Below the pieces are notes generated by a model. That model saw only the letters and a list, made by a program, of their open reading frames with translations. It was not told where the DNA came from and made no database searches. Below, piece by piece: positions 6,425 to 48,228 of a stretch of 48,228 bases of DNA. The position numbers were made by a program, and so were the translations under genes. The stretch covers positions 1 to 48,228 of IMG/VR virus record IMGVR_UViG_3300026519_000642. One strand, written 5' to 3'. This DNA is from a virus. Positions within the stretch are counted from its first letter, which is position 1. Every line of letters starts with the position of its first letter.

Positions 6425-6433
6425 AGATGAACC

Positions 6434-8886: not shown

Positions 8887-8892
8887 ATGACT

Positions 8893-8915: not shown

Positions 8916-8944
8916 GTTTTCAAGTTAATTTTTGAGGTGAAATT

Positions 8945-9771: not shown

Positions 9772-9993
9772 ATGACGAGTGAAGACGCAAAAAGAATTAG
9801 AGAAGAGTTTGGCATGACTCGCACTGCTTTTGCGCGTGATGTACTGAAAGTGCCTTACTCTACGGTGGAAAAGTGGGAAAGAGGGGATTGTGGCATTGGA
9901 TCGTCTGGTGTATCGCTGTATCAAGCGGTCGTGTTTATAAAAAACCAAAAAAAGCTGGATGAGTGGTTGACAACACACCGCAGCGGTGTATAA
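9772..9993 (+). CDS. XRE-type HTH regulator (73 aa)
   Basis: A 73-aa protein with a clear XRE-family helix-turn-helix: SEDAKRIREEFGMTRTAFAR, DVLKVPYSTVEKWERGD, and a scaffold helix to the C-terminus. The PYSTVEKWERGDCGIGSSG segment is characteristic of MqsA/HigA-like and phage antirepressor-linked regulators. The ATG at 9772 is preferred to TTG 9769. The next promoter (9967-9994) lies in the last codons of this gene, and its CACCGCAGCGGTG palindrome encodes the last residues, so this protein is a good candidate for binding that sequence. Confidence 0.8.
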   Translation: MTSEDAKRIREEFGMTRTAFARDVLKVPYSTVEKWERGDCGIGSSGVSLYQAVVFIKNQKKLDEWLTTHRSGV

Positions 9994-9994
9994 T
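9967..9994 (+). promoter_or_regulatory. Promoter with perfect CACCGC-A-GCGGTG operator
   Basis: TTGACA (9967-9972), 16 bases, TATAAT (9989-9994). The palindrome CACCGCAGCGGTG (9976-9988) fills the spacer up to the -10 box. The leader of the following gene (AGTTAATTTTTGAGGTGAAA before ATGAAAG) is the same as that of the gene at 8945, so the two units share a regulatory module. Confidence 0.85.
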
Positions 9995-10048
9995 AGAAAT
10001 TAAGAAATCTTGAATGGCCCGGTTTCAGTTAATTTTTGAGGTGAAATT

Positions 10049-10345
10049 ATGAAAGCAAAAAAGATGAAGCAAACTGTTTATGACAAAAAACAATTATTAA
10101 TACTTTTAATCTGCATTTCAAGCGCAAATGCTAACGATAAGATTTTAATAAAAGCCCCTGGCTCATATTCATTTGGTGGGGTGAATGAATATATTTCCTA
10201 CAGTCAGGTAATAGGAAACTGTTTTAAAAAAAATGGTATTGTTTTGATTGATTTTAAAAAAACAACTGAAATTGTAAACAATGCAAAAACTAATGTGATT
10301 AGTTGCAATTATATAGTACGCCAATATATTCAAAATGAGGATTAG
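10049..10345 (+). CDS. Small secreted protein (98 aa)
   Basis: A 98-aa protein with an N-terminal basic stretch (MKAKKMKQTVYDKK), a hydrophobic core (QLLILLICISS) and an ANA-ND cleavage site near residue 31, so it probably reaches the periplasm. The mature part is about 67 residues, with two Cys (IGNCFKK, VISCNY) able to pair. The family is not recognised. It is the first gene after the promoter with the perfect CACCGCAGCGGTG operator and shares that leader with the gene at 8945. Confidence 0.7.
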   Translation: MKAKKMKQTVYDKKQLLILLICISSANANDKILIKAPGSYSFGGVNEYISYSQVIGNCFKKNGIVLIDFKKTTEIVNNAKTNVISCNYIVRQYIQNED

Positions 10346-10348
10346 ATA

Positions 10349-10453
10349 ATGACTGAAAATATAGAAAAATTATTAGAGGAAAAAGAAAATATTACCAATA
10401 AATTATCTGAAATTAATCAAAAAATATATGAAATATTGGTTAGAAACCCATAA
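10349..10453 (+). CDS. Small coiled-coil peptide (34 aa)
   Basis: A 34-aa frame (MTENIEKLLEEKENITNKLS at the start) begins three bases after the previous stop, with GAGGATTAGATA before the ATG; a nearly identical spacing sequence precedes the gene at 10719. It is strongly helical with heptad spacing. It overlaps the following gene by 26 bases in another frame, which favours a true small gene. Confidence 0.45.
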   Translation: MTENIEKLLEEKENITNKLSEINQKIYEILVRNP

Positions 10454-12437: not shown

Positions 12438-13424
12438 ATGAGTTCTAACGAAAATTCACGCATTGATTATGAGTCTGGCGTGACACCTTATCCCATGTCT
12501 GCATTGACTGATTCAGGAGATCGAAAAACATTTAATTCAAGTGCAAGTTTATTTTCTGAGAGTTCTGGTAATTCGCCGGACGTTAGGCCAAATGGGTTAT
12601 TAACGGGTGGGGCTGTTATCCAGGCTGTTTCTAATGCAGATGATTCAATTGATGTTGAGTCATTAACGTGTTATTTGGCTGGTGTTAAAACGTCTGTTTC
12701 GGCTGGCACTGATGTTTCAATATCTCGGGCTGGAACAAATGTTTCTAAAGTCAGCTCAATAACGATTAACAGTGCGGGAGCTATTGCTGTTGTTGCCGGT
12801 ACTGTTGGCACGAATGCAACGTTTAGCGAAACTAGAGGAGCGGCAGGTGGTCCTCCTTATATTCCGGCTGGCAGTATTGAAATAGCACAAGTTAGAACCA
12901 CTACAAGTTCAGCCGCACCCATTACGGCGGCTGAAATATTTGATGTGCCAGGAACTCATACCGAGCGATCTGATTTTCCTGTTTTTACCAAAGATAATAC
13001 AGCCGGAACGGTTACATTCGATACAGCATTACCGGCTATTCATACGGGTGATGTGTCAAAGGCTGTTTATGCGAGCTATGCTGAGCCGGTTTTTACTGAA
13101 CAACCGTTTGCCAATGATTTTGTTCCCGCCGAAACAACACATAGCACCAGTTCAACACAGGTTTATGGTGCAACGATAGGCTCCAGTTCTCAATCGTTGA
13201 ATCAGGCGACATTCACGGCCATTTTGAACGATGGCATAACAGATTCAATTTTGAGTAAAGCGAATGAAACACTATGGTTCAGATATTATCAGGATAAATT
13301 CAAAACAGCTCATATTTTGACACAAGGGAAATTAGGTGTTTCAAGAACATTTGGCGCGGCAGACAATCCACAAGTGAGCTGTACTATTTCGCCTAGCGTT
13401 GCCAGCGTGAACAAAGCCTCGTAA
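12438..13424 (+). CDS. Major tail (tube) protein (328 aa)
   Basis: A 328-aa Ser/Thr/Ala-rich, strand-rich protein with few charged runs, as in siphovirus tail tube subunits. It has a flexible-looking N-terminus, a region of alternating short strands (SAGTDVSISRAGTNVSKVSS) that may be an inserted Ig-like or decoration segment, and a C-terminal segment (ILTQGKLGVSRTFGAADNPQ). It follows the tail terminator and precedes the assembly chaperone and tape measure, the usual position for the tube gene. A leader of about 80 bases with GGAG upstream of ATG 12438 fits high expression. Confidence 0.8.
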   Translation: MSSNENSRIDYESGVTPYPMSALTDSGDRKTFNSSASLFSESSGNSPDVRPNGLLTGGAVIQAVSNADDSIDVESLTCYLAGVKTSVSAGTDVSISRAGTNVSKVSSITINSAGAIAVVAGTVGTNATFSETRGAAGGPPYIPAGSIEIAQVRTTTSSAAPITAAEIFDVPGTHTERSDFPVFTKDNTAGTVTFDTALPAIHTGDVSKAVYASYAEPVFTEQPFANDFVPAETTHSTSSTQVYGATIGSSSQSLNQATFTAILNDGITDSILSKANETLWFRYYQDKFKTAHILTQGKLGVSRTFGAADNPQVSCTISPSVASVNKAS

Positions 13425-13585
13425 TGTACATTTACACACTAGGCGAAGGTGGCGTTTTTAAATCAGATAAGTTTTATGAAGATATTGATTTTTTAGAATG
13501 TATTTATGTGGGTGTCGGAACTATGAAAGAATTTGTAGGCGGCGAATGGGCTGAAGTACCCTTTTATTCAGAAGAAGAAAAATAA
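13424..13585 (+). CDS. Small acidic tail-region protein (53 aa)
   Basis: A 53-aa acidic protein (MYIYTLGEGGVFKSDKFYED at the start) whose ATG overlaps the previous TAA by one base and whose stop abuts the chaperone start at 13586. The family is unknown. Tight packing between the tube and chaperone genes suggests it is real and used in tail assembly. Confidence 0.6.
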   Translation: MYIYTLGEGGVFKSDKFYEDIDFLECIYVGVGTMKEFVGGEWAEVPFYSEEEK

Positions 13586-14056
13586 ATGACATTTGATAAA
13601 AACGCATTTATGCGGCAAACATTTAAACCGCGAACCGAGTTGGTTGATGTTCCAGCATTAAAAGCTTGGTTTTCGTCTGAAAATGACGATGAAAAAACAG
13701 TGCCAAAATGGGAAGTGCGGGGGCAGACGGCCAGCGAAATTGCAAAATCATTTGATTCTGCAAGCAAGGTAAAAAATCTGGATGCGATTGTAAAAGCAAT
13801 CAGCTCATCATCCATTCAAGTCGATGAGCTTAGAAAAGCAATTGGAATTTCTGATGATGTGCCAGAGGATATAATAAAACGGCTTGAGCAACTTGTCGCT
13901 TGTAGCGTTGACCCGGTTGTTGATATGCCGTTAGCGGTTAAATTAGCTGAAACATTCCCGATTGAGTTTTATCAGCTAACAAACAAAATTGTTGAATTAA
14001 CCGGCATGGGAATGGATTTCCAAAAGCCCAAGCCCTCTGGAAAGATTGCAGCGTAA
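13586..14056 (+). CDS. Tail assembly chaperone, unshifted form (156 aa)
   Basis: A 156-aa product, the G-like form of the tail assembly chaperone that coats and folds the tape measure. It begins MTFDKNAFMRQTFKPRTELV and has helices rich in Lys and Glu; AETFPIEFYQLTNKIVELTG near the end is typical of the family. Its last codons hold a candidate -1 slippage site (14038-14044), after which a second open frame runs to 14205. Position between tube and tape measure is diagnostic. Confidence 0.85.
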   Translation: MTFDKNAFMRQTFKPRTELVDVPALKAWFSSENDDEKTVPKWEVRGQTASEIAKSFDSASKVKNLDAIVKAISSSSIQVDELRKAIGISDDVPEDIIKRLEQLVACSVDPVVDMPLAVKLAETFPIEFYQLTNKIVELTGMGMDFQKPKPSGKIAA

Positions 14057-14205
14057 GAAATAAGATGGTTTTATGTGATGTCAGGGGCAAGTTTCTTTTC
14101 GAGACTTGCCCTTCTTTATTTCCAGAGGGCGAATTGATGGAGACGGAGGTTTTATTGTGGGAGATTTATTATCGAGACAAAAACGACAGGATAAACAATG
14201 GCTGA
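13586..14205 (+). CDS. Tail assembly chaperone, -1 frameshifted G-T form (about 206 aa)
   Basis: From the candidate site T GGA AAG (14038-14044) the -1 frame stays open for 53 codons to TGA 14203-14205, adding MVLCDVRGKFLFETCPSLFP and MEVLLW-like sequence (actual region: ETEVLLWEIYYRDKND). This second frame has the F--CP-LFP--E---LLW--YY pattern of chaperone T domains, which contact the tape measure. Its stop lies eight bases after the tape-measure ATG. By analogy with lambda, a small fraction of ribosomes would shift. The slippage position is inferred; the second coding frame is directly visible. Confidence 0.8.
14038..14044 (+). promoter_or_regulatory. Candidate -1 ribosomal slippage site TGGAAAG
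   Basis: In the zero frame the codons read GGA AAG with T before them, differing from the lambda G-T site (G GGA AAG) only at the first base. After a -1 slip AAG is re-read as AAA; GGA would be re-read as TGG, which is a poorer match. An alternative is the CAA AAG pair at 14024-14029. Both allow entry to the open -1 frame. Confidence 0.55.
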
Positions 14206-16906
14206 TTTAGAACGTACTGTCGAGATTATTTTCAAATCAATTGACCAAACCGGGACCGGGTTAACGTCTGTTTCATCAAAATTAAATGATTTTGAACGCA
14301 GTGTCGGCAATATCTCCGCGCCATTGGCCAGCCTTGCAGGAGATATTGTTAAAACAGAAACGGCAATTTTATCACTTGCAGCAGCTTATGGTGGTTATGC
14401 GGTAACACAAGCAGCAAAGTTTGAAACTGCTCAGATTGATTTGCAAAAAGTTCTTGGTAATGGTGAATCAATTGATAATTATACGCAGACAGTCAAAAAT
14501 TTGTCTGAAACGTATGGCATAACATCAACCAACATTCTTCAAGGGATTGCTAATTTCAAACAAGCTGGTTTTTCTGCAGATGAGGCGGCTAAATTACAAA
14601 AAAATGCTCTTGATTTAGTTATTTCTGGAGATTTGGAAGCCGGGCAAGCATCAGAGCAACTGGTTAGAATTTTAAAAGGGCAGAATGCAGCATTTAGTGA
14701 TGCTTCGCGATTCATTGAGGCAATGAACAATGTATCAAATCAATACGGTACAAGTCTGGGCGAATTATCTAACGGCATGTCTGCAATTTCACCCATTCTC
14801 AAAACAATGGGTTTTTCGTTTGAGCAGGGCGTTGGCGCAATTACGCCCATTATTGAAAGTTTTGGCTCAGGTACAGAGGCCGCAAATGCTTTAAAAGTTG
14901 GATTGCTTCGGTTAATTGATGATTCAAAGCCGGTTCAGGATGCACTAAAAGCGATTGGTGTTTCTCAAAAAGATGCGAATGGCGAATTGAGATCAGCGCG
15001 AGAAATTTATCTTGATGTGGGTGAGGCATTCAAAGGACTGACAAAAGAACAAAAGGCTTTTTTCTCAGGACAACTTTTTGGTAAAGAACAATCCGTCCGA
15101 TTGGTTTCGTTGTTCAATAATATGGATACGGCGGCCAGCGCAACCAGCGAGGCATTAAAACAAACGGGCAGTGTTGCTAATGAAGTTTCATTACGTTTGG
15201 ATTCGGCTGAAAAGCAAGTTGATAAATTCAAAGTTACGTTTGAAAATTTGGCGATTGCGGTCGGTGGCCAGGTTTTAGATAATTTTAAAGGCATCGCGGG
15301 CGGTGCAACAGAAATTAATAAATCATTTGAGCAAGTGGTTAATAACGGTGGTTTGGCTCCGTTATTCAACGCATTAAAACCGCTATTGTCTGATTTTGAG
15401 GAAACATTAAGGGGCATTGCAAAAGCATTGCCGGATGCATTCAAAGGTGTTGATTTTGACTGGTTGATTGCTTCATTTAGAAATTTAGGCGGGGAAATTG
15501 GTGATATATTCGGCGGGTTAGATTTAACCGATGCGGATGATTTAGAAAAAGCTCTCCAGGGAATTATTGATTTTATTTCGTTATTGACGAATGCAACTGC
15601 TGGAGTTGTTCAAGGGTTTAGCCCGTTTATTGATGGCATCAAGGCGCTTTTGTCAAGCTTGGGCAATGGTGATTCTGAATTTGTTAGTTTTGTTGGAAAT
15701 GTTTCAGGACTGGGCGCGGCGGTAAATCAAGTATTGCCGTTACTTAAATTTTTGGGCGATGCACTTGGCGCATTGGCTGACGTATTGATTGTTGTAACGG
15801 GGGCCAGAGCGTTTGGCAGTCTGTCGCCTGCTGTTTTAAGTGCCGCGAAAAGTTTTGGCGCATTTTTACCTGTTGCGGCGGCGGCGGTTTCTGCATTTAA
15901 AGCGATTCAGTTTGCAATTGATGAAAATGTTAAGGCTTATCAAGAGTATAAAGACCGAACGGATTTGTCAGGAACGATTGCAAATACTAATGAAAATCTC
16001 GAAAAACAACGAGCAAAATTAAAAGAAATTTCTGATGAAACCGGCGTTACTGTTACCAGTATTGATGAGCTAGAAAAGGCAATGAAAAGCGGCGCGATTG
16101 TTGCCGATGATTCGGCTCTTGGTTATTCGTCTGCCGGGGATGCTATTGATGAACTTGGCAATCAATCAGAAAAATTAGGTGATAGTACCGTTGATGCATC
16201 AAAAGCATTAAAACTACTGGGACTGAATGCAAATGGTGTTAAAGATGAAATAGCGGATGTTTCACAAGAAACATCAAGCGCGGCTGAATCAGAAGATGAA
16301 TGGATAAAAACCATTGAAAATGGGCAAACTGTTTACACGCATAAAACACGAGCATTAGCAGAATCAAAAAGTACAATTCGAGATGTTGTTAAAGCAACAA
16401 ATGAACTTTCTGAGGCTGAAAAAATAGCTGTTTCTCATGCTAATGACATGGAAAAAACGCTTGCAAAACTTGCGAGTAATGAAAAAATTAAAGCTATTGA
16501 ATTTAGCGCAAAAATACAAGTTGCAAGTATTGAAGCTGATGCAAAAAAAGTTACTCAAGCGTTTAAATCAATAAGTGAGGAGATTGTTAGTACAAACTCT
16601 TTAATAGATAGTCTAACATCACAACTTGGTAATAATAATTTATCAACATTTGATAAATTTAAAATTGATGATCAGATTAATGCTGCAAATAAACGTGCAG
16701 ATGAAATATTAAGACAGCAAGATCGGCTAAATGAAGCTGAAATTAGATTAAAAAATGCACGAGCAAAACAGATAGAAGATGGTGGTTCTGTTATTAAAGT
16801 TTATGCTGATAATCTGGCTCCAGAATTGCAAGCATTGCTTGAAAGTTTGGTTAATAATATACGCATTCAAGCAATAATAGAGGGTACAAATTTTATAACG
16901 GGATAG
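14198..16906 (+). CDS. Tape measure protein (902 aa)
   Basis: A 902-aa protein that sets tail length and passes through the tail tube on DNA entry. Residues 50-240 match the TP901-type core (AAKFETAQIDLQKVLGN; YGITSTNILQGIANFKQAGF; YGTSLGELSNGMSAISPILK; GAITPIIESFGSGTEAANAL). Hydrophobic helices near residues 440-580 (LADVLIVVTGARAF; FLPVAAAAVSAFKAIQF) may enter the host membrane. The C-terminal third is a long charged coiled coil. No peptidase or lysozyme domain is seen. It is the longest gene in the window, as expected, and starts inside the frameshifted chaperone frame. Confidence 0.95.
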   Translation: MADLERTVEIIFKSIDQTGTGLTSVSSKLNDFERSVGNISAPLASLAGDIVKTETAILSLAAAYGGYAVTQAAKFETAQIDLQKVLGNGESIDNYTQTVKNLSETYGITSTNILQGIANFKQAGFSADEAAKLQKNALDLVISGDLEAGQASEQLVRILKGQNAAFSDASRFIEAMNNVSNQYGTSLGELSNGMSAISPILKTMGFSFEQGVGAITPIIESFGSGTEAANALKVGLLRLIDDSKPVQDALKAIGVSQKDANGELRSAREIYLDVGEAFKGLTKEQKAFFSGQLFGKEQSVRLVSLFNNMDTAASATSEALKQTGSVANEVSLRLDSAEKQVDKFKVTFENLAIAVGGQVLDNFKGIAGGATEINKSFEQVVNNGGLAPLFNALKPLLSDFEETLRGIAKALPDAFKGVDFDWLIASFRNLGGEIGDIFGGLDLTDADDLEKALQGIIDFISLLTNATAGVVQGFSPFIDGIKALLSSLGNGDSEFVSFVGNVSGLGAAVNQVLPLLKFLGDALGALADVLIVVTGARAFGSLSPAVLSAAKSFGAFLPVAAAAVSAFKAIQFAIDENVKAYQEYKDRTDLSGTIANTNENLEKQRAKLKEISDETGVTVTSIDELEKAMKSGAIVADDSALGYSSAGDAIDELGNQSEKLGDSTVDASKALKLLGLNANGVKDEIADVSQETSSAAESEDEWIKTIENGQTVYTHKTRALAESKSTIRDVVKATNELSEAEKIAVSHANDMEKTLAKLASNEKIKAIEFSAKIQVASIEADAKKVTQAFKSISEEIVSTNSLIDSLTSQLGNNNLSTFDKFKIDDQINAANKRADEILRQQDRLNEAEIRLKNARAKQIEDGGSVIKVYADNLAPELQALLESLVNNIRIQAIIEGTNFITG

Positions 16907-22343: not shown

Positions 22344-22825
22344 TTAGTATTCCTCCAGTTGCCATATTTTTTATAATCAAACAAATGAAGTGAATTGTTA
22401 TCTACATGTTTTTCCCAATCTTTCCTGAATTTTATTGCGGTTTTAAACGCTAACGCGGCCAGATTCACGCTAAACTCTTCAATCCTTCCAAACGGAAAAG
22501 CTTGCGTGTGTTTTTTTCCTTTATAGTCAATCCAGCTGACTGCATAGACCAGGTAGGTTAGTCCCCTTTTTTTGTAATGCCGCTGTGTTTGGCAGACGCC
22601 TAGAACGCCAGTTGATCTATTGTTTTTTGCATGTTCAATCATCCTTTTTTTTGGCAAAACAAGCATCATTTGGTCGCGGTAATTTTGCGCTGCCTTTAAC
22701 GCCTTTTTTTTGCTGCCCCATAATTTGTAAGAGAAATACCGGCTTTTTTCAGTGCCTTTTCTAACAATTCTGACTTGAAACCCGTTTTTGTCTGGCTGTG
22801 TGATGTTTTTTAATGATTGATTCAT
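22340..22825 (-). CDS. AP2-domain DNA-binding protein (161 aa)
   Basis: A 161-aa basic protein with two AP2-like DNA-binding repeats: GFQVRIVRKGTEKSRYFSYK with LWGSKKKALKAAQNYRD, and a second starting RSTGVLGVCQTQRHYKKRG with TYLVYAVSWIDYKGKKHTQ and LAALAFKTAIKFRKDWE. AP2 domains in phages occur in integrase- or homing-nuclease-linked proteins and bind DNA. The ATG at 22825 overlaps the integrase stop (TAATG), so it is translated with the integrase and may assist recombination, possibly as a directionality or accessory factor. That role is inferred. Confidence 0.7.
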   Translation of the reverse strand: MNQSLKNITQPDKNGFQVRIVRKGTEKSRYFSYKLWGSKKKALKAAQNYRDQMMLVLPKKRMIEHAKNNRSTGVLGVCQTQRHYKKRGLTYLVYAVSWIDYKGKKHTQAFPFGRIEEFSVNLAALAFKTAIKFRKDWEKHVDNNSLHLFDYKKYGNWRNTN

Positions 22826-23841
22826 TAAATATCTAAATCCCCTGGGTCCAGGTTTGCATAGCGTTTTAATGTGTTCCATGAACTATGCAGTGTGACTTGT
22901 TGCACCTCGACAATACTTAATCCGCGTTCAAATAATCGGCTAGTGGCCTCGTGTCGTAAATCGTGCATCCTTAAATCTTTAATATTGAGTAGTCGGCATG
23001 CGTTTGTAAAATAAGTGCTGATGGTTCTGGCATTGTAAGGAAATATTTTTTTATCAATTTTAGGTTGTTTAATGACTATTTTATAAGCACTTTTTGACAA
23101 TTTAAAGCGTTTTTTAATGCCTTTTTTCCTTGGGTCTTTCATGTTTTTTAACAGGCATGTTTTATTATCGTGGTTAATGTCGTTCCATTCAAGCCTCATA
23201 ATTTCACTCTCGCGCCTGGCTGAATAAATGGCAAACCACATAATGTGCAGCATTGGAATTGTTTTTTGTGTGTCATAAAAATAGCGTGATAATTGCCAAA
23301 GCTCCTCTTTTGTCGGTCGTCTGTCTCGATGACTTGATTTTGCAATCAGCCCTTCTGTTCTTAGAATTTCTCGCGCTTTGTCGAAAATGGTTAAATCTAC
23401 GCTAATATCTAAAATTCCTGACATGGTTTTAATCACGCCATTTAGCCAGATCAAATCATTGGTAGCTGTTTGCGGCTGGCACTCTGTATTTCTAATTCTG
23501 ATGTGGCGTATTAAATCCCTCTCATTTAATTTGTTAACATCTATTTTTGCAATATCGCGGGTCATTAATTTATTAAGATCAAAGTTTTTTGATCGGCCGC
23601 TAGGCGAGAATTCTTTTAAATACGAAGCTATGACTTTTTTTATTGGCAAGTAGTCTTTTTTTTTGTAAATAGTTTGCTCTTGTAATTCAAGCTCGCGTCG
23701 AATCGCCCAGTCTTTTGCTAGTTTGCGCTTACTAAAACTTTTTTTCTCTCTGTGTACGATTTGACTGTGCTTTCTAATTTTTATTGATGCGTCATAAATA
23801 ATGCTACCATCTGCCTTTAGTCTTTTTGTTATAGATGCCAT
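22825..23841 (-). CDS. int: Tyrosine integrase, DusA-type (338 aa)
   Basis: A 338-aa tyrosine recombinase. Catalytic residues are visible: R210 (SARRESEI), a candidate K near 232-235, H293 and R296 (HDLRHE), H319 (TLHSSW) and nucleophile Y328 (LKRYANL). The N-terminal 60 residues are a basic arm-binding region (MASITKRLKADGSIIYDASI), followed by a core-binding helical domain. Next to the gene is an attP that contains the start of dusA, which indicates integration into the tRNA-dihydrouridine synthase gene of the host. The length is a little below the 380-400 aa typical of the family. It has the convergent tail gene downstream, and is followed by the AP2 protein. Confidence 0.95.
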   Translation of the reverse strand: MASITKRLKADGSIIYDASIKIRKHSQIVHREKKSFSKRKLAKDWAIRRELELQEQTIYKKKDYLPIKKVIASYLKEFSPSGRSKNFDLNKLMTRDIAKIDVNKLNERDLIRHIRIRNTECQPQTATNDLIWLNGVIKTMSGILDISVDLTIFDKAREILRTEGLIAKSSHRDRRPTKEELWQLSRYFYDTQKTIPMLHIMWFAIYSARRESEIMRLEWNDINHDNKTCLLKNMKDPRKKGIKKRFKLSKSAYKIVIKQPKIDKKIFPYNARTISTYFTNACRLLNIKDLRMHDLRHEATSRLFERGLSIVEVQQVTLHSSWNTLKRYANLDPGDLDI

Positions 23842-24808: not shown

Positions 24809-25309
24809 TTATTTTGCATTTTTAATTTCCTCATCTGTGTATTTCTCCGTGTTTTCACTGTTCCACAAGCGCATTTCATAGGCATCAGGATTTCCATTCA
24901 TGTGCTCTGATTTGGAATATTTCTCCGCGTTTTTTATATTCCAACAGCGCATTTTATACTCAGTTGGATCAGCTTTTTGATGTTCTTCCTTGGAATATTT
25001 CTCCTCGTTTTTTATGTTCCACCAGCGCATATCATCCGCAGTTGGACCAGCTTTTTGATGTTCTTCCTTGGAATATTTCTCAGCGTTTTCTTCATTCCAC
25101 CAGCGCATACCATACGCAGTTGGGACAGCCTTTTGATGTTCTTCCTTGGAATATTTCTCCTCGTTTTTTATGTTCCACCAGCGCATATCATCCGCAGTTG
25201 GACCAGCTTTTTGATGTTCTTCCTTGGAATATTTCTCCTCGTTTTCACTGTTCCACAAGCGCATTTCATCCGCAGTTGTATTAGTTTTTTTATGTTCTGA
25301 TTTAGTCAT
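24809..25309 (-). CDS. Trp-rich tandem-repeat protein (166 aa)
   Basis: A 166-aa protein built from a 26-residue unit repeated five times between partial end units. The consensus is EKYSKEEHQKAGPTADDMRW followed by WNIKNE. Units 2 and 4 are identical; units 3, 5 and 6 have a few changes. It has a very regular Glu/Lys pattern, with one Trp-Trp or aromatic pair per unit, no signal peptide and no catalytic motif. A one-repeat paralogue with nearly the same N- and C-termini is encoded at 28173-28283. Its start overlaps the stop of the HTH gene at 25306 (ATGA). Repeat-scaffold or multivalent binding protein; function unknown. Confidence 0.85.
   Translation of the reverse strand: MTKSEHKKTNTTADEMRLWNSENEEKYSKEEHQKAGPTADDMRWWNIKNEEKYSKEEHQKAVPTAYGMRWWNEENAEKYSKEEHQKAGPTADDMRWWNIKNEEKYSKEEHQKADPTEYKMRCWNIKNAEKYSKSEHMNGNPDAYEMRLWNSENTEKYTDEEIKNAK
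24840..25240 (-). repeat. Tandem 78-bp coding repeats
   Basis: The gene at 24809-25309 carries a 78-bp unit (26 codons) in tandem, five complete copies plus partial end copies. Identity between copies is high at the DNA level, including the exact repeat of the unit encoding KEEHQKAGPTADDMRWWN. Such arrays expand and contract by slippage and unequal recombination. They encode protein in one frame and lack spacer-repeat alternation, so this is not a CRISPR array. Confidence 0.9.
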
Positions 25310-26622: not shown

Positions 26623-26843
26623 TTTAGTATTTTTGGCAGTTCTTTTTGTTCTGGGATGTCGTGTATTTGCACTTGAGCGTCTAATACTAATTGAGCATTT
26701 GAAATAACCTGACGTGCAACATCTGTGATGTTTCTTGTTCTTATACTTTCCATTTCTAATTTATCCGGTGTTATTTTTTCATCACTCAATCGTTCAATTT
26801 GTGCAAATAAATGATTGTTTAAATCAGTCAGTGTGTTTTTCAT
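26619..26843 (-). CDS. Small helical early protein (74 aa)
   Basis: A 74-aa helical protein (LNNHLFAQIERLSDEKITPD; IRTRNITDVARQVISNAQLV). Similar small genes occur just before HNH genes in other phages; function unknown. Its start lies 20 bases inside the methyltransferase-like gene and its stop overlaps the HNH start. Confidence 0.6.
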   Translation of the reverse strand: MKNTLTDLNNHLFAQIERLSDEKITPDKLEMESIRTRNITDVARQVISNAQLVLDAQVQIHDIPEQKELPKILK

Positions 26844-27276
26844 GTTTTTTTACCTTATGCTGTGGATGTTTTTTAAATATGTCAAAAAAGTTTTTGCATT
26901 CTATTTTTTCGCATAGTTGCCTGGCAATAATAATTTGGCTTAATTTTTTTGTGTCCACTATTTCTGAATTTAGTTTGTCGATAAAAAATTTATAAATTTT
27001 CATTCTTGCTTCAACGACTAAATTATCATCCAGTTCAATTGCATAGAATTTGAATAAACAATCAGCAAATGCTTTTTCTTTGTCGTTATCATATTTTTCT
27101 AATAGTGCATTGTAAATTCTTTCTATAATAACAATCAACATTTCCCCGTTTCCGCATGAAGGCTCAAAAAATAAGGTATTTTCGTCTTTAAATACATTTT
27201 GATCTAGCATATCCAGCATTTCATTTGTTACCCAGCGCGGCGTAAATATTTGCGCTTCTTTTAGATTTTTCTTCAT
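26824..27276 (-). CDS. Short N6-methyltransferase-like protein, catalytic motif not seen (150 aa)
   Basis: A 150-aa protein with a Rossmann-like start: FTPRWVTNEMLDML (residues 11-24), FFEPSCGNGEMLIVI (SAM-binding motif I, 40-55) and FYAIELDDNLVVEARMKIY (motif II, 93-111). The N6-adenine methyltransferase catalytic motif (N/D-P-P-Y/F) is not visible; the protein ends in a Lys/His-rich tail (FKKHPQHKVKKHEKH). Full enzymes of this kind are several hundred residues, so it is either truncated or a small SAM-binding relative. It is in the early operon between the PrtN-like gene and the 74-aa gene. Confidence 0.7.
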   Translation of the reverse strand: MKKNLKEAQIFTPRWVTNEMLDMLDQNVFKDENTLFFEPSCGNGEMLIVIIERIYNALLEKYDNDKEKAFADCLFKFYAIELDDNLVVEARMKIYKFFIDKLNSEIVDTKKLSQIIIARQLCEKIECKNFFDIFKKHPQHKVKKHEKHTD

Positions 27277-27723: not shown

Positions 27724-28167
27724 CTAAAATGGTATGTCGTCATCAAAATGCTCGGGTGGCGTATTGTTTGAATCAACGCTGTTTTGTTGTTGGATTTGAT
27801 CTGCTGATTGTTTGTTTGGTTCTTCATTTCGTCCACCTAGCATTTGCATTTGTTCAGCAATGATTTCAGTGGACCAACGATCTTGTCCTGATTGATCTTG
27901 CCATTTTCGTGTTTGTATTCTGCCCTCGATATAAACTTTACTGCCTTTTTTTAGATATTCGCCTGCAACTTCTGCAAGTTTTCTAAAAAAAACAATTCGA
28001 TGCCATTCTGTTTTTTCTTTTTTTTCGCCAGATTGTTTGTCTTTCCATTTCGTTGTTGTTGCCAGTCTGATGTTGGTTATAGCATCGCCGCTTGGCATAT
28101 AACGAACGTCTGGGTTATCACCTAAATTTCCTATTAACATCACTTTATTTAGCATTTCATTATCCAC
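27724..28167 (-). CDS. ssb: Single-stranded DNA-binding protein (147 aa)
   Basis: A 147-aa SSB. The OB-fold is clear: [84 protein letters not shown] Gln/Asn-rich linker ends in the acidic tip DDDIPF that recruits partner proteins. It coats single-stranded DNA in replication and in RecT-type recombination. It lies between the one-repeat gene and the 63-aa gene in the early operon. Confidence 0.95.
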
Positions 28168-28172
28168 TTATT

Positions 28173-28283
28173 TTATTCTGCATTTTCAATTTCATCATCT
28201 GTGTATTTCTCCGCGTTTTTTATGTTCCACAAGCGCATTTCATCCGCAGTTGGATTAGTTTTTTTATGTTCTGATTTAGTCAT
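28173..28283 (-). CDS. One-repeat paralogue of the Trp-rich repeat protein (36 aa)
   Basis: A 36-aa frame, MTKSEHKKTNPTADEMRLWN then IKNAEKYTDDEIENAE, equals the N-terminal and C-terminal parts of the 166-aa protein at 24809-25309 fused around a single unit. A ribosome site (GGGAGA) precedes it. The 166-aa gene can be derived from this one by expansion of one unit. It is between exonuclease and SSB in the early operon, so it is probably expressed early. Confidence 0.75.
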   Translation of the reverse strand: MTKSEHKKTNPTADEMRLWNIKNAEKYTDDEIENAE

Positions 28284-34409: not shown

Positions 34410-34752
34410 TTGAACAAAAAATAAATATTAAACCATTATCTGTTAATGATGCGTGGAAAGGAAAACGATATAAAACTGAAAAATATAAAAATTATGAAAA
34501 TGTTTTATTTAATTATTATTTAAAAAAAAAAATAGGAATGTAAAATTTATTAATTGCCGGTTAAAAATTACATTTGAATTTGGGTTTAGCAGCAAGGCGT
34601 CTGACTACGATAATCCTATAAAAATTTTACAAGATATTTTGCAGAAAAAATATGGTTTTAATGATAGCTATATTTATGAAGCGAATATAAAAAAAACAAT
34701 CGTAAAAAAAGGTAATGAATTTGTTTATTTTAAAATTGAAAAATTGTGCTGA
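34406..34752 (+). pseudogene. rusA: RusA-type Holliday junction nuclease, frame broken at A11
   Basis: ATG 34406 opens MIEQKINIKPLSVNDAWKGK and RYKTEKYKNYENVLFNYYLK, then stops at 34541-34543 after a run of eleven A (34522-34532). Reading from the run in the -1 frame gives LKITFEFGFSSKASDYDNPI, KILQDILQKKYGFNDSYIYE and a Lys-rich end to TGA 34750-34752. D-YDN--K--QD is the RusA metal motif. Joined, the product is about 115 aa, the normal length (120 aa). Either slippage on the A-run yields the protein, or one A is missing from the sequence. RusA resolves recombination intermediates. Confidence 0.8.
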
Positions 34753-35147
34753 AAATTTATTTCAATATTGATGAGTTTTGCATTACAAAAGGGATGATTC
34801 CGCAAGAAATAGCGAATAAAATTCTTTATCACATATCAATTATTAATCCAATTAGAGTTGAATTAGGCCATCCAATTTATGTATCTAAAAACTCGGGATA
34901 CAGGCCAAAATGGTATGAATTAAGCCGTGGTCGTTCTGGCAATAGTGAGCACTGCTATGTTAATAAAGGGGCTGCTGATTATACATGCAGAAAATCAGAC
35001 ATTAGAATGTTATTACATGAATTGTTAAATTCTGAGTATATGCGTGTTTGTTATTATCCTAATGATAATTTTATTCATTGCGATTTAAAAGGTAGTATAA
35101 AACAGTATTACATTGATTATGGTAATGGGTGGTATCTGCAAAAATAA
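34746..35147 (+). CDS. M15-type peptidase, likely endolysin (133 aa)
   Basis: A 133-aa zinc peptidase of the M15_3 type, from GTG 34746. Zinc ligands are H69 (GNSEHC), D78 (KGAADYT) and H111 (FIHCDL). The SGYRP and RGRSGNSEHC segments are typical. It has no signal peptide, so it needs a holin to reach the wall. It should cut peptide cross-links in peptidoglycan during lysis. The start overlaps the RusA end by seven bases. Confidence 0.85.
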   Translation: MLKIYFNIDEFCITKGMIPQEIANKILYHISIINPIRVELGHPIYVSKNSGYRPKWYELSRGRSGNSEHCYVNKGAADYTCRKSDIRMLLHELLNSEYMRVCYYPNDNFIHCDLKGSIKQYYIDYGNGWYLQK

Positions 35148-38647: not shown

Positions 38648-38953
38648 ATGAAATTTTTTCAATTACTACTATGTTTGCAAATTTCAGGATGCTCTAGTTT
38701 TTTATCAAATAGCAATGGCTATCATGATGTTATTAAAAACAAAGACTCTGTTCAAGCATCGACAGATAAAACTCTAAAAGAAATTAATTGGTGTGAGGAT
38801 CAAAACGGTTCAATTGTTTTTAATGAAAAAATAGCAACAAATGGATATTGTGTTATTGAGTCTAATTATAAAAAAACATTTTTAGAGTTTCTTAATAATG
38901 CAACAAAATTAGGAATCAATATTTTGTATCCTAATCGAAATATTGGGCTGTAA
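38648..38953 (+). CDS. Small lipoprotein (101 aa)
   Basis: A 101-aa lipoprotein with MKFFQLLLCLQISGCSSFLS: lipobox ISGC, Cys 15. The mature part has two Cys (EINWCEDQ, NGYCVIES), probably disulfide-linked. It lies between fibre and terminase genes with DUF1353 next. It may be an outer-membrane spanin-like factor, but no partner is clear. Confidence 0.6.
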   Translation: MKFFQLLLCLQISGCSSFLSNSNGYHDVIKNKDSVQASTDKTLKEINWCEDQNGSIVFNEKIATNGYCVIESNYKKTFLEFLNNATKLGINILYPNRNIGL

Positions 38954-40243: not shown

Positions 40244-40618
40244 ATGGCTAAACGTGGACCACCAAAAACAGTTATCGATTGGCAAACCGTTGATGCTATG
40301 TTGAAAATACAATGTACTGGCGAGGAAATAGCCTCAGTTTTAGACATTGACTACGATACACTTCAAAACGCTTGCAAACGCGATCATAAAATGAAGTTTT
40401 CGGAGTATTCAGCTAAAAAAAGGCTTGGAGGCCGCGCCTCGCTTAGAAGAATGCAGTGGAAAAAAGCTGAAAGCGGAGATTCAACACTTTTAATTTGGCT
40501 TGGTAAAAATATCTTAAATCAGTCAGATAAAACAAATTTGGGCGACGAAGAAGCGCAGCCGATAAACATTAAAGTTGATGTCATTAATGCATCCAAACCT
40601 AAATTATCCTCAAGCTAA
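40244..40618 (+). CDS. terS: Terminase small subunit (124 aa)
   Basis: A 124-aa DNA-binding protein: MAKRGPPKTVIDWQTVDAML and the HTH KIQCTGEEIASVLDIDYDTL, followed by RRMQWKKAESGDSTLLIWLG, the oligomerisation helix pair, and a flexible tail. It recognises the packaging site and stimulates the large subunit, whose gene starts inside this one. Confidence 0.85.
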   Translation: MAKRGPPKTVIDWQTVDAMLKIQCTGEEIASVLDIDYDTLQNACKRDHKMKFSEYSAKKRLGGRASLRRMQWKKAESGDSTLLIWLGKNILNQSDKTNLGDEEAQPINIKVDVINASKPKLSSS

Positions 40619-41834
40619 TTTTCTAAATTTAGATCATAAATACAGGGCATTTGTAGGCGGGTTAGGCAGCGGAAAAACATGGGTTGGATGTACCGCGCAA
40701 ATCCACCATGTTTTACAAAATCCAGGTATTCCACAAGGCTATTTTGCGCCAACTTATTCATTAATTCGTGATATTTTCTATCCAACCATTGAAGAAGTTG
40801 CGTATCAATATGGCGTTAAAACAACTGTTAAAACAGGTGATAAAGAAATAGATTTTTATTATTCTGGCAAATGGTATGGGACTACAATTTGCAGAACAAT
40901 GGACCGCCCGGAAACGATTGTTGGTTTTAAAATTGGTCATGCAATGGTTGATGAAATTGATGTCATGGCAACTGATAAGGCCGAAATTTCATGGCGTAAA
41001 ATTATTGGTCGGTTACGCTATCAAAAAGACGGGGTTAAAAACGGCGTGGATGTAACAACAACGCCTGAGGGGTTTAAATTCACATATAACCGTTTTGCCA
41101 AAGAGCCTACAGAATCGTATGGAATATTACAGGCGTCAACGTATGATAATGAACTAAATTTACCACCTGATTACATTCAAACATTAAAAGAGTCATACCC
41201 AAGCCAGGTTATTGAAGCATACATAAATGGTCAGTTTGTTAACCTCGTTAGTGGTACGGTTTATCATGCATACAATGATGATTGTAAATGCAAAATTGTT
41301 CATCAAAAAAACGAACCGATTCATGTTGGAATGGATTTTAACGTTAGAAATATGTCAGCAATCATTAACGTGCAGCGTGATGGCATTTGTTATGCCGTAG
41401 ATGAATTAGTTGGCGTGTTAGATACGCCAACCATGATCGATTTATTAAAAGACAGGTTTTACGGATGCTCTATTATTGTGAGACCCGATGCCAGCGGTAA
41501 AAATGTTAGTAGCAAAGGCGCGGCTGTTAGCGACATCAGGCAATTACAACAAGCAGGTTTCTGGGTTGATGCGCCCAATCAAAATCCAAGAATTAAAGAC
41601 AGGATAAATTCTGTTAATGCAGCTTTTGAAAAAGGACAGCTAAAAGTAAATGCTGAAAAATGTCCAAACCTTGATTTATCGCTTCAGCAACAAATTTATG
41701 ATAAAAATGGAATGCCTGAAAAACGGCTAGATAATAGTATTGACGATATTAACGATGCATTTGGTTATAATGTTCATGGGTTATATCCGCTAGACAAATT
41801 ATTAAAATTAAATAATAAAGGAAACTGGAAATGA
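40587..41834 (+). CDS. terL: Terminase large subunit (415 aa)
   Basis: A 415-aa packaging motor. Walker A FVGGLGSGKT (22-31), Walker B with catalytic Glu in HAMVDEIDVM, coupling motif TTTPEG, and a C-terminal nuclease domain with MDFNVRNMSA and RPDASGKN carrying metal-binding Asp residues. The start may be ATG 40587 or 40578. It overlaps the small subunit gene. This size matches the pac/T4-like short terminases. Confidence 0.95.
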   Translation: MHPNLNYPQANFLNLDHKYRAFVGGLGSGKTWVGCTAQIHHVLQNPGIPQGYFAPTYSLIRDIFYPTIEEVAYQYGVKTTVKTGDKEIDFYYSGKWYGTTICRTMDRPETIVGFKIGHAMVDEIDVMATDKAEISWRKIIGRLRYQKDGVKNGVDVTTTPEGFKFTYNRFAKEPTESYGILQASTYDNELNLPPDYIQTLKESYPSQVIEAYINGQFVNLVSGTVYHAYNDDCKCKIVHQKNEPIHVGMDFNVRNMSAIINVQRDGICYAVDELVGVLDTPTMIDLLKDRFYGCSIIVRPDASGKNVSSKGAAVSDIRQLQQAGFWVDAPNQNPRIKDRINSVNAAFEKGQLKVNAEKCPNLDLSLQQQIYDKNGMPEKRLDNSIDDINDAFGYNVHGLYPLDKLLKLNNKGNWK

Positions 41835-41837
41835 TTC

Positions 41838-41957
41838 ATGATTGTGAAATTAAAAAAAGTAGCATTAAATATTGTAGCTATTGCTAGATTGGTTATTATA
41901 TTTTTATGTATTATGATGGTTATTAATTTTATTATTGAGATTATTGCGTGGACATAG
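41838..41957 (+). CDS. Tiny membrane protein (39 aa)
   Basis: A 39-aa peptide with one transmembrane helix (MIVKLKKVALNIVAIARLVI, then IFLCIMMVINFIIEII). It starts four bases after the large terminase stop and overlaps the portal start by ten bases. It may be a holin-like or packaging-associated peptide; not recognised. Confidence 0.4.
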   Translation: MIVKLKKVALNIVAIARLVIIFLCIMMVINFIIEIIAWT

Positions 41958-43345
41958 ATGAATTAAAACAAACACATGATGATTATAAAAATAATGTTAA
42001 TTCATGGTTATTATATAAAGCCGCGTTTAGTGGAACACGCGCATTAATACAATCAGGTTTTGTTTTAAAAAAACATGATCGTGAGTCAGCAACAAATCAT
42101 ACTCGAAGAAAAGAAAAAGCCTATGGTTATAATTTCACAAAAAGATTAATTGGCTTAATTAATTCTTTATTATCTCAAAAAAAATCAGTCAGCAATTATG
42201 GAAAATTGGGTAATGATGATTTGTTTAAATTGTTCATTAAGAACTGTGATTATGAAGGCAGCGATTTTGAGCGGTGGCTAATTAATCAGCAATTATCATC
42301 ATTCATTTTCGGTCATGTTGGTGTTTTGATTGATAAACCAAAAATTGAAAATGATCATATCGTTGAAAGAACGATTGCTGATAATGTTGGCCAAGAAATA
42401 TATCCGTATTTAAGCCAATATTCTGCTCTTAATATTTTGGATTGGAAAACAAACCGTGAAAATGGTCGGCTGGTTTTAACTTATCTTAAATTGCTAGATG
42501 ACGATGGGAATTATCGATTGTATTGGCAGGATAGATGGCAGGTTTGGCAAATAGAAGATGATAATGCGGTTTTAAAGGATGAAGGAGATAGTTTTTTAGG
42601 CGTTATTCCGTTTGTTTGGTTAACGCATGGCTCGTTAGAAAATAAATTTATTGGCGTTAGTTTAGCAGCAGAAATCAGCCTAATTGATATATCAGTTATT
42701 GAAAACTTGAGCCAAGGCGAGGAGGTTATTGACTTAACAGCTTTCCCAATGATGCGAAAACCAATGCTTATGCCTGGCGATCATGATGAGGATATTGTTG
42801 GGGCAAGTGGTGTTTTAGAGTTTGATCCAAATAATCCAAACAGTAAACCAGACTGGCTTCAATCTCAGGCGCGAGAACCTATTTCGGCTATTTTGGATTG
42901 GATTGATTCAAAAGTTATTGAAATGGCAAGAATGTTTAACGCGAGTGCTTTTTTTAGTCAATCAAAAGCAGCTATTTCAGGCGAATCAAGAAAACGTGAA
43001 TTTCAGTTAATGAACAGTGCGCTTGCTAATGAATCACGCAATCTTGAACAGTTTCAACGACAAATCATATATTTTTGGCTGCTTTGGGAGCAAAAAGAAG
43101 AATTGATGAAAGATGTCGTGATAACCAGACCGACTGATTTTGATATTTCAGACAAAACAGAAGAATTGGATAATTTAGTTACCTCAAAAGTCACGGTTAA
43201 TTCAAAAACATTTCATGAAGAAGTGGATAAGAAAATTGCAAAAATTGCTTTGCCTGATTTGGCACTAAAAGAAAGAAATGTCATTAATGATGAAATAGCA
43301 CAGGTTCGTGATGTTCCTATCGTTAAAGCGGATGGAAAAAGTTAG
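41948..43345 (+). CDS. Portal protein (465 aa)
   Basis: A 465-aa portal of the SPP1-gp6/DUF4055-like type, from GTG 41948. It has KRLIGLINSLLSQKK, SFIFGHVGVLIDKP (wing), NILDWKTNRENGRLVLTYLK, GVIPFVWLTHG, EISLIDISVIENLSQ (long helix), and a crown-forming C-terminal part. Twelve copies form the ring at one capsid vertex through which DNA is packed. It is between terminase and head morphogenesis genes, as usual. Confidence 0.9.
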   Translation: MDIDELKQTHDDYKNNVNSWLLYKAAFSGTRALIQSGFVLKKHDRESATNHTRRKEKAYGYNFTKRLIGLINSLLSQKKSVSNYGKLGNDDLFKLFIKNCDYEGSDFERWLINQQLSSFIFGHVGVLIDKPKIENDHIVERTIADNVGQEIYPYLSQYSALNILDWKTNRENGRLVLTYLKLLDDDGNYRLYWQDRWQVWQIEDDNAVLKDEGDSFLGVIPFVWLTHGSLENKFIGVSLAAEISLIDISVIENLSQGEEVIDLTAFPMMRKPMLMPGDHDEDIVGASGVLEFDPNNPNSKPDWLQSQAREPISAILDWIDSKVIEMARMFNASAFFSQSKAAISGESRKREFQLMNSALANESRNLEQFQRQIIYFWLLWEQKEELMKDVVITRPTDFDISDKTEELDNLVTSKVTVNSKTFHEEVDKKIAKIALPDLALKERNVINDEIAQVRDVPIVKADGKS

Positions 43346-45242: not shown

Positions 45243-46253
45243 ATGGCTAGTACAAGAATTGCGGACATTTATGAGCCGCTGACATTTGCTGAAACAATCA
45301 GTGAGCGAGCAATTGAATTAAATGCGTTTATTTCGTCTGGTGTCGCCGCATTAGACCCATTAATTGATGATCAGGCATCGGTTGGCGGTAGAATTGGTGA
45401 TATTACCGGAAATTCGCCATTGTCTAGTGTTGATCCAAATATTAGCAGTGATGACCCGGCGGTTGTTAGTACCCCTCAAAAGCTGGTGCAATCAACGCAA
45501 AAATGGCGACTAAGCGCACTGAATCAAAGTTGGTCGTCTATGGATTTAGCGCGTGAGCTTGCATCACCTAACCCAGTGGCTGGTATTACTGATAAAATCG
45601 GTCAATATTGGTCAACAGTTTGGGAAAAACGGATTATTGCACAAACAGACGGGGTTATTGCTGATAATGTTGCGAACGATTCATCTGACATGGTTTTGGA
45701 TGTTTCTATTGAAGATGGAACCGCAGCAACAGCAACAAATCTTATTAGTGCAAATTCAGTTTTAGATGCAAAACAGACATTAGGAGATAGAGCTGATGAT
45801 CTTTCTGTTATTGCTATGCATTCAGTGATATTTACTGCATTGCAAAAACAAAATCTGATTCAGTATATTCCAAATGCCAGAGGTGAAATTGAATTTCCAA
45901 GTTATTTAGGATACCGCGTTGTTGTTGATGATTTAATGTCAGTGACGGCTGGAGCAACAAGCGGGTTTAAATACACAACATTGTTATTTGCATCAAATGC
46001 GATTGGTTATGGCAATGGGCGTGTTGATATGCCAACCGAGACAGAACGTAAGCCTGATACTGGTAATGGCGGAGGTCAGGAAATATTTTATTCTCGTGAG
46101 TCAAAAGTTTATCATCCATATGGAGTTAGTTTTGAAAGTGCTTCCGTAGCTTCTATTTCGCCATCCGTTGCCGAACTTAAAAACGCGGCAAATTGGAATA
46201 GAGTGTGGAATAGAAAAAATGTAGGCATAGCTGCTTTGATTACAAACGGGTAA
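45243..46253 (+). CDS. Major capsid protein (336 aa)
   Basis: A 336-aa HK97-fold-type capsid protein: TRIADIYEPLTFAETISERA, VQSTQKWRLSALNQSWSSMD, FPSYLGYRVVVDDLMSVTAG, YKTTLLFASNAIGY-like (actual FKYTTLLFASNAIGYG) and a C-terminal VSFESASVASISPSVAELKN. A very strong ribosome site (AAGGAGG, 45229-45235) fits the most abundant virion protein. It follows the scaffold gene. Confidence 0.9.
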   Translation: MASTRIADIYEPLTFAETISERAIELNAFISSGVAALDPLIDDQASVGGRIGDITGNSPLSSVDPNISSDDPAVVSTPQKLVQSTQKWRLSALNQSWSSMDLARELASPNPVAGITDKIGQYWSTVWEKRIIAQTDGVIADNVANDSSDMVLDVSIEDGTAATATNLISANSVLDAKQTLGDRADDLSVIAMHSVIFTALQKQNLIQYIPNARGEIEFPSYLGYRVVVDDLMSVTAGATSGFKYTTLLFASNAIGYGNGRVDMPTETERKPDTGNGGGQEIFYSRESKVYHPYGVSFESASVASISPSVAELKNAANWNRVWNRKNVGIAALITNG

Positions 46254-46427: not shown

Positions 46428-46498
46428 GAGCCGACTTATTACTAGGCATTACAACCTGTGCTTTGTCTGTCTAGTTTTAAGTCGGCTCGCCTTTTTTT
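46428..46498 (+). terminator. Late terminator with a long nested hairpin
   Basis: GAGCCGACTTA (46428-46438) pairs exactly with TAAGTCGGCTC (46478-46488), followed by GCC and seven T. Inside, ACTAG (46441-46445) pairs with CTAGT (46471-46475). Ends the head operon and lies between convergent genes; on the minus strand it lacks a T-run. Confidence 0.85.
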
Positions 46499-46907
46499 AT
46501 TGCTCAGGTTGTCTTTTGAAAACTAAGAGACCAATGAAAGAGGAAAACAGCAAAATGGCCGATGGCGGTAATGGAACCGGCTTTTGTGGTGTCTCGCTCT
46601 TTGATATTGAATAGGATTCAATATTTGATAAAACCGTTTCAATTCTTGAGTTGAAAACATCATTGATGTTAGTGAAAAACAAATTAACGCTTTCATTTGA
46701 TGAGAAAACGCTGGCATCAAAAAATATAGTATCTTCTGTGCTGAATGTTAATATTTCGTTATTAATATTCAAAGATGATGTGATTTTATTAGACCATGAA
46801 AAATTTGGTGTTGGTAACACTTCATCTTGAAATGGCAAAACTGATGCATTAATGTTTGTGGAAACAAACAGTGATAATGCTAGGCATATAATATTAAAAA
46901 ATTTCAT
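46497..46907 (-). CDS. Exported protein with PEP-CTERM (VPLP-type) sorting tail (136 aa)
   Basis: A 136-aa protein with a signal peptide (MKFFNIICLALSLFVSTNINA, cut near residue 21-22) and a C-terminal sorting tail: VPLP (111-114), a hydrophobic helix (AILLFSSFIGLLVF, 117-130) and Lys-Arg at 131-132. This three-part tail is the PEP-CTERM signal recognised by exosortase EpsH in exopolysaccharide-producing Gram-negative bacteria. The middle is short and Ser/Asn-rich. A phage gene of this kind would put a protein on the host surface or matrix, probably as a lysogenic cargo gene. It is leftward, opposite to the head operon. Confidence 0.8.
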   Translation of the reverse strand: MKFFNIICLALSLFVSTNINASVLPFQDEVLPTPNFSWSNKITSSLNINNEILTFSTEDTIFFDASVFSSNESVNLFFTNINDVFNSRIETVLSNIESYSISKSETPQKPVPLPPSAILLFSSFIGLLVFKRQPEQ

Positions 46908-46984: not shown

Positions 46985-47467
46985 TTAATTAATTCTTCGC
47001 CAAACCCAGGGCGGCATGGGTTGATTGTTATTCCATAACCCTTTTTTATTTCGTTTCGCTCTACGTTCTGAAATGTAATAACGTGCAAATTTTCTGCCCC
47101 TTGCATATCTCGGCTCAACCCACGCAGCCCCGCTTTTAACCATTTCGTTGTTAATATCGGTATTGCCAACAAAAATACGTGCAATCATACGCCCGTAATG
47201 ATCCCTACGTTTTTTTGACACAACTTTTATTACTTTACCAGCAATCAGGCGATATAAAATTTCGGTACTTTCATCACCAAAAGCTTGGTCACTTTCAGGC
47301 GCGTCAATCGCTTCTAAACGTATTGTGTGGTATCGGTTGCTATTGTCCTTTGTGACAATCGTATCACCGTCTTTTATGCGTATGACTCTATGAATTGATG
47401 CTGCATTAGCATGTTTGTAGAATGCGGTTATTATGATGAATGCGAACGCTAATAGTAATATTTTCAT
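46985..47467 (-). CDS. Secreted staphylococcal-nuclease-like thermonuclease (160 aa)
   Basis: A 160-aa nuclease with signal peptide MKILLLAFAFIIITAFYKHA (cut after ANA, residue 22). Active-site residues are D35 (KDGDT), R50 (IRLEAIDAPE), D55, E58 and R93 (YGRMIARI), matching R35, D40, E43 and R87 of the S. aureus enzyme. It should degrade DNA or RNA outside the cytoplasm, for nucleotide supply or against other phage DNA. It overlaps the next gene by four bases. Confidence 0.9.
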   Translation of the reverse strand: MKILLLAFAFIIITAFYKHANAASIHRVIRIKDGDTIVTKDNSNRYHTIRLEAIDAPESDQAFGDESTEILYRLIAGKVIKVVSKKRRDHYGRMIARIFVGNTDINNEMVKSGAAWVEPRYARGRKFARYYISERRAKRNKKGLWNNNQPMPPWVWRRIN

Positions 47468-47662: not shown

Positions 47663-47716
47663 CTATTCTCCAGATACCTGTTCGCCATTAATAAAAATTT
47701 CAACTTTCCCATTCAT
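47663..47716 (-). CDS. Possible tiny peptide (17 aa)
   Basis: MNGKVEIFINGEQVSGE, preceded by CAGGAG and overlapping the stop of the 171-codon frame. A short strand-turn-strand peptide; may be real, may be chance. Confidence 0.25.
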   Translation of the reverse strand: MNGKVEIFINGEQVSGE

Positions 47717-48228
47717 TTCTCCTGTTTTTCGTTAAAAATATCAGGGTACTTTGTTATTAATTCTTTGCTTTTTTTCTCCTTCTCCGCTTCGTACTCTTTT
47801 TCTTGCATTAACTGCTTGCTTGAAAAATACAACTCCCAATACCCATTGGCGGAAAAGTAGCCATTTTTTTCTATATCATCTTGAACAACTTTCTTTAATG
47901 TTTCGTTGGTCAAATCAAATTCTTTTAATTTATGATCTGCATGGACCTTCGATAATACATAATCAAATAGCATGAATGGTGAAGCAGCAAAAATAAACAA
48001 AGAAGCAAAAGTTAATCCGATAACGGAAATATAAAATATTGATCTTGTAAGATAATCAAATCCATACGCAAATTCATTTAATTGATCACCGTAGTTAAAT
48101 ATTAATGAATGAAATAAAGCAGCAACCATTAAAACAGTCATTACTGATAAAAATACTTTTAACTTGTAATAATTTTTCAAATCAAAAGCATTGAAACGGA
48201 TACCTATTATGTTTGCTTGATTGTTCAT
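47713..48228 (-). CDS. Membrane protein, main part (continues from the left edge)
   Basis: A 171-codon frame reaches the right edge. It has two hydrophobic segments (VFLSVMTVLMVAALFHSLIF and SIFYISVIGLTFASLFIFAA), a FDLTNETLKKVVQDDIEKNG part and a Glu/Lys-rich C-terminal helix. The ATG at 48228 is exactly at the edge and may be internal: joined in frame to the 20 codons at 60-1 it yields 191 aa. The function is unknown; it may be an inner-membrane exclusion protein encoded in the leftward cargo operon. Confidence 0.6.
   Translation of the reverse strand: MNNQANIIGIRFNAFDLKNYYKLKVFLSVMTVLMVAALFHSLIFNYGDQLNEFAYGFDYLTRSIFYISVIGLTFASLFIFAASPFMLFDYVLSKVHADHKLKEFDLTNETLKKVVQDDIEKNGYFSANGYWELYFSSKQLMQEKEYEAEKEKKSKELITKYPDIFNEKQEK

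Follow-up and report, generated by a model that had tools for sequence, protein, structure and literature searches.

A short reverse-strand gene beside the capsid gene of a virus record raises the question of whether a temperate phage can encode a substrate for the exosortase of its host. The window analysed here is the whole 48,228-base IMG/VR virus record IMGVR_UViG_3300026519_000642 (GC content 35%, no tRNA genes). The gene lies at 46497-46907 on the reverse strand, which is exactly the ORF, strand and position, between the capsid gene and a secreted nuclease, that the first-pass annotation had given for a phage-encoded PEP-CTERM protein. Its product is a predicted exported protein of 136 residues with a PEP-CTERM-like tail.

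The phage and the surroundings of the cargo gene

The window carries a terminase (40575-41834), a portal (41948-43345), a Gp13-like major capsid protein (45243-46253, forward strand; PF20036, 1.4e-5), a tape measure (14198-16906), RecT and YqaJ recombination genes, an S24-type repressor and a tyrosine integrase (22825-23841, reverse strand; PF00589, 1.4e-17), and we therefore assign it to a temperate siphophage. The capsid protein shows 75% identity to L001, L002 and L008. A forward-strand attP-like segment at 23945-23998 copies the 5' end of dusA and encodes MNKVKRLFSVAPMLDWTD, the start of DusA, so the dusA site noted in the first-pass annotation was right; with integrase, dusA-type attP, terminase, portal and capsid within the same record, the description of the cargo gene as phage-encoded is also borne out. 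The nearest known relative, hereafter the sister phage (G003, L218; the 53-kb record IMGVR_UViG_3300027822_000478), matches the window at 75% in the capsid protein, 77% in a 328-residue late protein and 58% in the tape measure.

The cargo gene runs antisense to the late operon, flanked by the capsid gene on one side and an SNase-type nuclease gene on the other. Between the capsid operon and the cargo gene, a hairpin with a T-run (GAGCCGACTTA...TAAGTCGGCTC; 46428-46498, forward strand; 11-bp stem, folding z = -5.0, 0 of 200 shuffles) is the predicted terminator of the capsid operon. The cargo gene is preceded on its own strand, across a gap of 77 bases, by the gene for a secreted staphylococcal-nuclease-type nuclease (46985-47467; PF00565, 3e-22), which has a 38% homologue in the sister phage and no close homologue on viral contigs. 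A 171-residue predicted membrane protein (47713-48228, reverse strand; two hydrophobic stretches by eye, no family match) has its start at the end of the record. The head-completion gene directly follows the capsid gene in the nearest relative and its window counterpart stands at 11058, a displacement which points to insertion of the cargo region there, about 13 kb with the ends of the record joined; this joining would follow from the synteny with the nearest relative.

Sigma-54 is the usual promoter type of proteobacterial PEP-CTERM genes, for most members though not for all. No -24/-12 site occurs in the 77-bp gap upstream of the cargo gene, and a match with 2 mismatches at 47084-47099 on the reverse strand falls inside the nuclease gene and within chance, so the sigma-54 control of the host seems to be bypassed. 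Furthermore, neither a sigma-70-like promoter above chance nor a strong Shine-Dalgarno sequence was found for the gene.

Elsewhere, the window contains a SNF2 helicase (2973-4454) and, at 5111-7374, a DUF3440/PAPS-reductase-like protein (5e-83) followed by a small acetyltransferase-like ORF and a ParB-like protein (both by eye), a row that resembles an IbrA/IbrB pair. An 86-bp inverted repeat (501-586 and 1307-1392; 94% complementary, 720 bp between) flanks small regulator-like genes, and near-identical promoter-like leaders (8859-8951 and 9967-10055; 37 bp at 81% and 29 bp at 100%) precede two unrelated small genes. Five 78-bp tandem coding repeats (KYSKEEHQKA..DDMRWWNIKNEE) lie at 24825-25298 in a 166-residue ORF, with a diverged copy of the repeat at 28111-28272.

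Export signal and tail of the 136-residue protein

Residues 1-21 (MKFFNIICLALSLFVSTNINA; 46845-46907, reverse strand) form a Sec-type signal peptide, by sequence and by a rule-based screen, with Lys-2, a hydrophobic core and an AxA-type cleavage site before Ser; no lipobox occurs at this N terminus. The C terminus (PVPLPPSAILLFSSFIGLLVFKRQPEQ) joins VPLPPS to a hydrophobic helix and a Lys-Arg pair. The sorting tail recognized by the custom HMM described below covers residues 111-136 (VPLPPSAILLFSSFIGLLVFKRQPEQ; 46500-46577, reverse strand), and the mean hydropathy of its predicted transmembrane helix, SAILLFSSFIGLLVF, is above the cut-off. The protein thus has both the signal peptide and the C-terminal transmembrane helix of PEP-CTERM proteins. 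The PEP motif is near-invariant in PEP-CTERM tails; here the proline motif is VPLPP, not PEP, and the basic end consists of K-R only, followed by QPEQ. The 88-residue core is rich in Ser, Asn and Phe, no homologue of the protein was found in viral contigs, genome contigs, phages or plasmids, and AlphaFold2 run on it without an alignment was uninformative (mean pLDDT 39). According to PMC1569441, most PEP-CTERM proteins likewise have signal peptides and no homologues outside the tag, with a signal peptide in 97% of members after re-analysis.

Of the two refuting conditions named together in the first-pass annotation, no score to any PEP-CTERM model and hosts without an exosortase, the first applies as far as curated models go: neither the Pfam and NCBIfam libraries, TIGR02595 and TIGR03370 included, nor TIGR03370 searched directly returned a match to the protein even at E ≤ 10. 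Other viral PEP-CTERM proteins are picked up by the same Pfam and NCBIfam libraries, which makes this tail a true near-miss. A custom HMM was built from 16 tails of the VPLP, VPVP and VPIP types, none of them viral, from TIGR03370-found proteins of exosortase-positive Gammaproteobacteria, and was scored on the C-terminal 45 residues of every six-frame ORF with 60 residues or more in the window and loci L001-L149, 9,382 in all. The window tail ranked first (17.7 bits, E = 0.0011), with the next unrelated tail at 8.9 bits, and its 5,000 shuffled versions gave no score above 4.4. The background held 94 loci picked for their ability to encode PVPLPPSA, which made the test harder; a helix and basic end were found in none of these 94 viral stretches. 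Independently, 6,698 viral ORFs were screened for a signal peptide at one end and a tail of P-x-P, helix and basic residue at the other; 8 had such a tail and 316 a signal-like N terminus, and the 3 ORFs with both are the one in the window and two in the nearest relative. No VPLPPSAxxL tail occurred in 274 genomes, so the exact tail is uncommon; a VPLPPS tail, VPLPPSLWLLFGVLGALAMMRHRAGEA, was found in an exosortase-positive genome (G021, L246). The tail of the 136-residue protein is more than chance. As for the full sorting signal that the first-pass annotation had read in it, the custom model and two PEP-CTERM proteins of the sister phage speak for it, and the curated Pfam and NCBIfam PEP-CTERM models against it.

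An exosortase (PF09721) is present in 91 of the 274 sampled Gammaproteobacteria, about one third, and none was seen among the window genes examined. The dusA attB pattern, allowing up to 3 mismatches, gave no host match in these 274 genomes; a capsid scan of genomes returned only distant prophages (Halomonas, Robiginitomaculum and others), and no exosortase was found in the Halomonas genome with a related capsid gene. An exosortase-bearing host for this phage is plausible.

PEP-CTERM genes in the sister phage and on other viral contigs

The strongest support for the claim comes from two PEP-CTERM proteins of the sister phage, which were absent from the evidence of the first-pass annotation. 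One of them, a 199-residue protein at 9775-10374 of that record, scores 34.0 bits (E 8.5e-9) and ends in TPIPGAVWLMGSGLVGLLGLKRSKAV. The other is a metzincin-like protease (12527-13180, or 12581-13180 from an inner start; ending PLPPSSIMFLSGIVTLLVRRIKK / IPLPPSSIMFLSGIVTLLVRRIKK), in which HELGHILSLDH and NIM fit the metzincin pattern of zinc site and Met-turn and the Pfam M10 match (0.0035) is below the cut-off. Its tail alone reaches only 11.8 bits with the custom model, and it aligns with the window tail (PLPPSSIMFLSGIVTLLVRR versus PLPPSAILLFSSFIGLLVFK; pairwise E 9e-5). A homologue of this protease at 36% identity, with HELGHNLGLDH, a VPLPA tail and an RRRR end, is encoded in genome G104, which has two exosortases. 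Both PEP-CTERM genes lie inside the sister phage among recombination and methylase genes, with YqaJ upstream (47% to that of the window) and a methylase-like gene downstream (68% to window 26824-27276). The phage lineage therefore carries PEP-CTERM genes at different, non-syntenic places, and for at least one of them an exosortase-bearing bacterium has a gene of the same type. After the protease gene, 13177-14055 of the sister phage encodes a secreted alpha/beta hydrolase (PETase-like, 8.6e-11).

Scanning IMG/VR with two tail patterns yielded 52 viral loci with convincing PEP-CTERM tails, 24 of which also hold a homologue of a terminase, portal or capsid protein within the same ≤15 kb, although some records may hold host flanks. 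With the tails removed, the largest homologous group comprises 19 loci, a grouping of 35 loci resting partly on the tails. Members of the 19-locus group have a signal peptide, an FGQxSG start and a VPEPATLALLG tail, and lie near phage portal, capsid and terminase genes. Representatives of four viral PEP-CTERM families gave no tblastn match in 50,697 annotated phages with low-complexity filtering on. PEP-CTERM cargo in phages had been called rarely described; this agrees with the literature searches made, which turned up no paper on phage-encoded PEP-CTERM proteins, and with 52 loci such proteins are not rare on environmental viral contigs. The loci with viral PEP-CTERM proteins are numbered within L153-L214; at L157, L159, L162 and L163, a 102-residue protein with a VPLPA tail and no signal peptide lies beside a phage DNA polymerase.

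Proposed role, alternatives and known systems

We consider it probable that the 136-residue protein is lysogenic-conversion cargo, processed by the exosortase of the host and shown on the surface or in the matrix. The temperate siphophage would carry a small secreted tagged protein as antisense cargo outside the late operon. In the lysogen, the protein would be exported by Sec and lose its signal peptide, and the C-terminal helix would anchor it in the inner membrane with the KR end inside, as predicted from its sequence. The exosortase of the host may then cut at VPLPP, a site suggested by tail similarity and by the model of Haft et al. (PMC1569441), and free the protein to the outer surface or extracellular matrix. 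The displayed protein could alter the lysogen surface through adhesion, matrix binding or masking of phage entry, and the neighbouring secreted nuclease might act together with it. Altered aggregation or surface masking would be the likeliest class of effect, because the PEP-CTERM protein PepA retains exopolysaccharide and promotes flocculation, as described in PMC9850573.

Several observations count against this reading: the lack of a curated-model score, PLP in place of PEP, a basic end of just two residues, an upstream region lacking a sigma-54 site and a core without homologues. The protein might instead be an ordinary bitopic envelope protein, N-out with a C-terminal anchor, such as a protein that assists lysis or excludes superinfection, which would stay in the inner membrane and carry VPLPP incidentally. 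A signal peptide and a single C-terminal helix suit such a topology, as does the missing curated match, and membrane exclusion proteins are often carried by phages. However, the tail stands well apart from the viral background, two PEP-CTERM tails occur in the sister phage, the cargo gene is antisense to the late operon, and candidate lysis genes stand elsewhere (an M15-like endolysin, by eye, at 34746-35147 and a lipoprotein at 38648-38953), and we regard this explanation as unlikely. The marks of a u-spanin or lysis protein are absent as well: there is no lipobox, the gene lies antisense beside the capsid gene, and the candidate endolysin is about 11 kb away.

Less probable still is a decayed remnant of the PEP-CTERM metzincin of the sister phage, with the catalytic HExxH part deleted and the signal peptide, SVNLFF strand region and tail left, an origin that would be compatible with the sorting-tail reading. 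The motifs SVNLFF and PLPPS[AS]I are common to both proteins, and when aligned to a profile of two metzincin sequences the core outscored every one of 150 shuffles at standard gap costs, and with cheap gaps 1 of the 150 did as well. This test was post hoc, however, comparison of the core with the single sister sequence gave no significance (308 of 3,000 shuffles as good), and the two phages show no synteny in the placing of these genes. That the ORF is no gene, with the antisense strand or nothing expressed there, seems very improbable. The antisense frame has the higher codon-usage score (+24.7, versus a positive, modest +12.8) and a strong ribosome-binding site is lacking, but two stops break the antisense frame, and an export signal and a tag at the exact ends of an ORF were seen in 3 of 6,698 ORFs.

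Returning to surface cargo processed by the host exosortase, the tagged proteins of the sister phage suggest that such viruses remodel the surface of the host bacterium. More tentatively, and falling a little short of even chances in our view, temperate phages of exosortase-bearing bacteria may routinely encode their own sorting substrates, tagged proteases among them, and lysogens would then display proteins of the phage's choosing in the biofilm matrix, a previously undescribed class of surface conversion. Biofilm-forming bacteria mark matrix proteins of their own with this tag for delivery to the cell surface, and PEP-CTERM proteins such as PepA hold flocs together (PMC9850573). If phages supply tagged proteins, becoming a lysogen could affect how wastewater and environmental bacteria aggregate, how they turn over their matrix and how susceptible they are to phages, and the tag of a phage would show which exosortase its host possesses.

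Among known systems, dusA-integrating temperate phages and islands (PMC4482086) have a tyrosine integrase adjoining a copy of the dusA 5' end as in the window, and this integration module is the sole common part. Like lysogenic-conversion 'moron' genes, the cargo gene is extra, antisense, outside the late operon and absent from that place in the nearest relative, whereas its lack of a sigma-70-like promoter above chance sets it apart. Floc-associated PepA (NF033554; PMC9850573) is matched by the 199-residue protein of the sister phage and by one viral PEP-CTERM group representative, mainly in the tail and below the family cut-off, and has no match in the 136-residue protein. From the VPLPA-CTERM subclass (TIGR03370) of the PEP-CTERM/EpsH exosortase system, the 136-residue protein differs by PLP+P in place of PEP or VPLPA, by two basic residues, by the absence of a curated score and a sigma-54 promoter, and by being phage-encoded. 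In common with this subclass, as presented by Haft et al. 2006 (PMC1569441), it has a signal peptide, a helix of about 14-17 residues and little homology outside the tag, together with a proline motif and a basic end a few residues from the C terminus in the altered forms just named.
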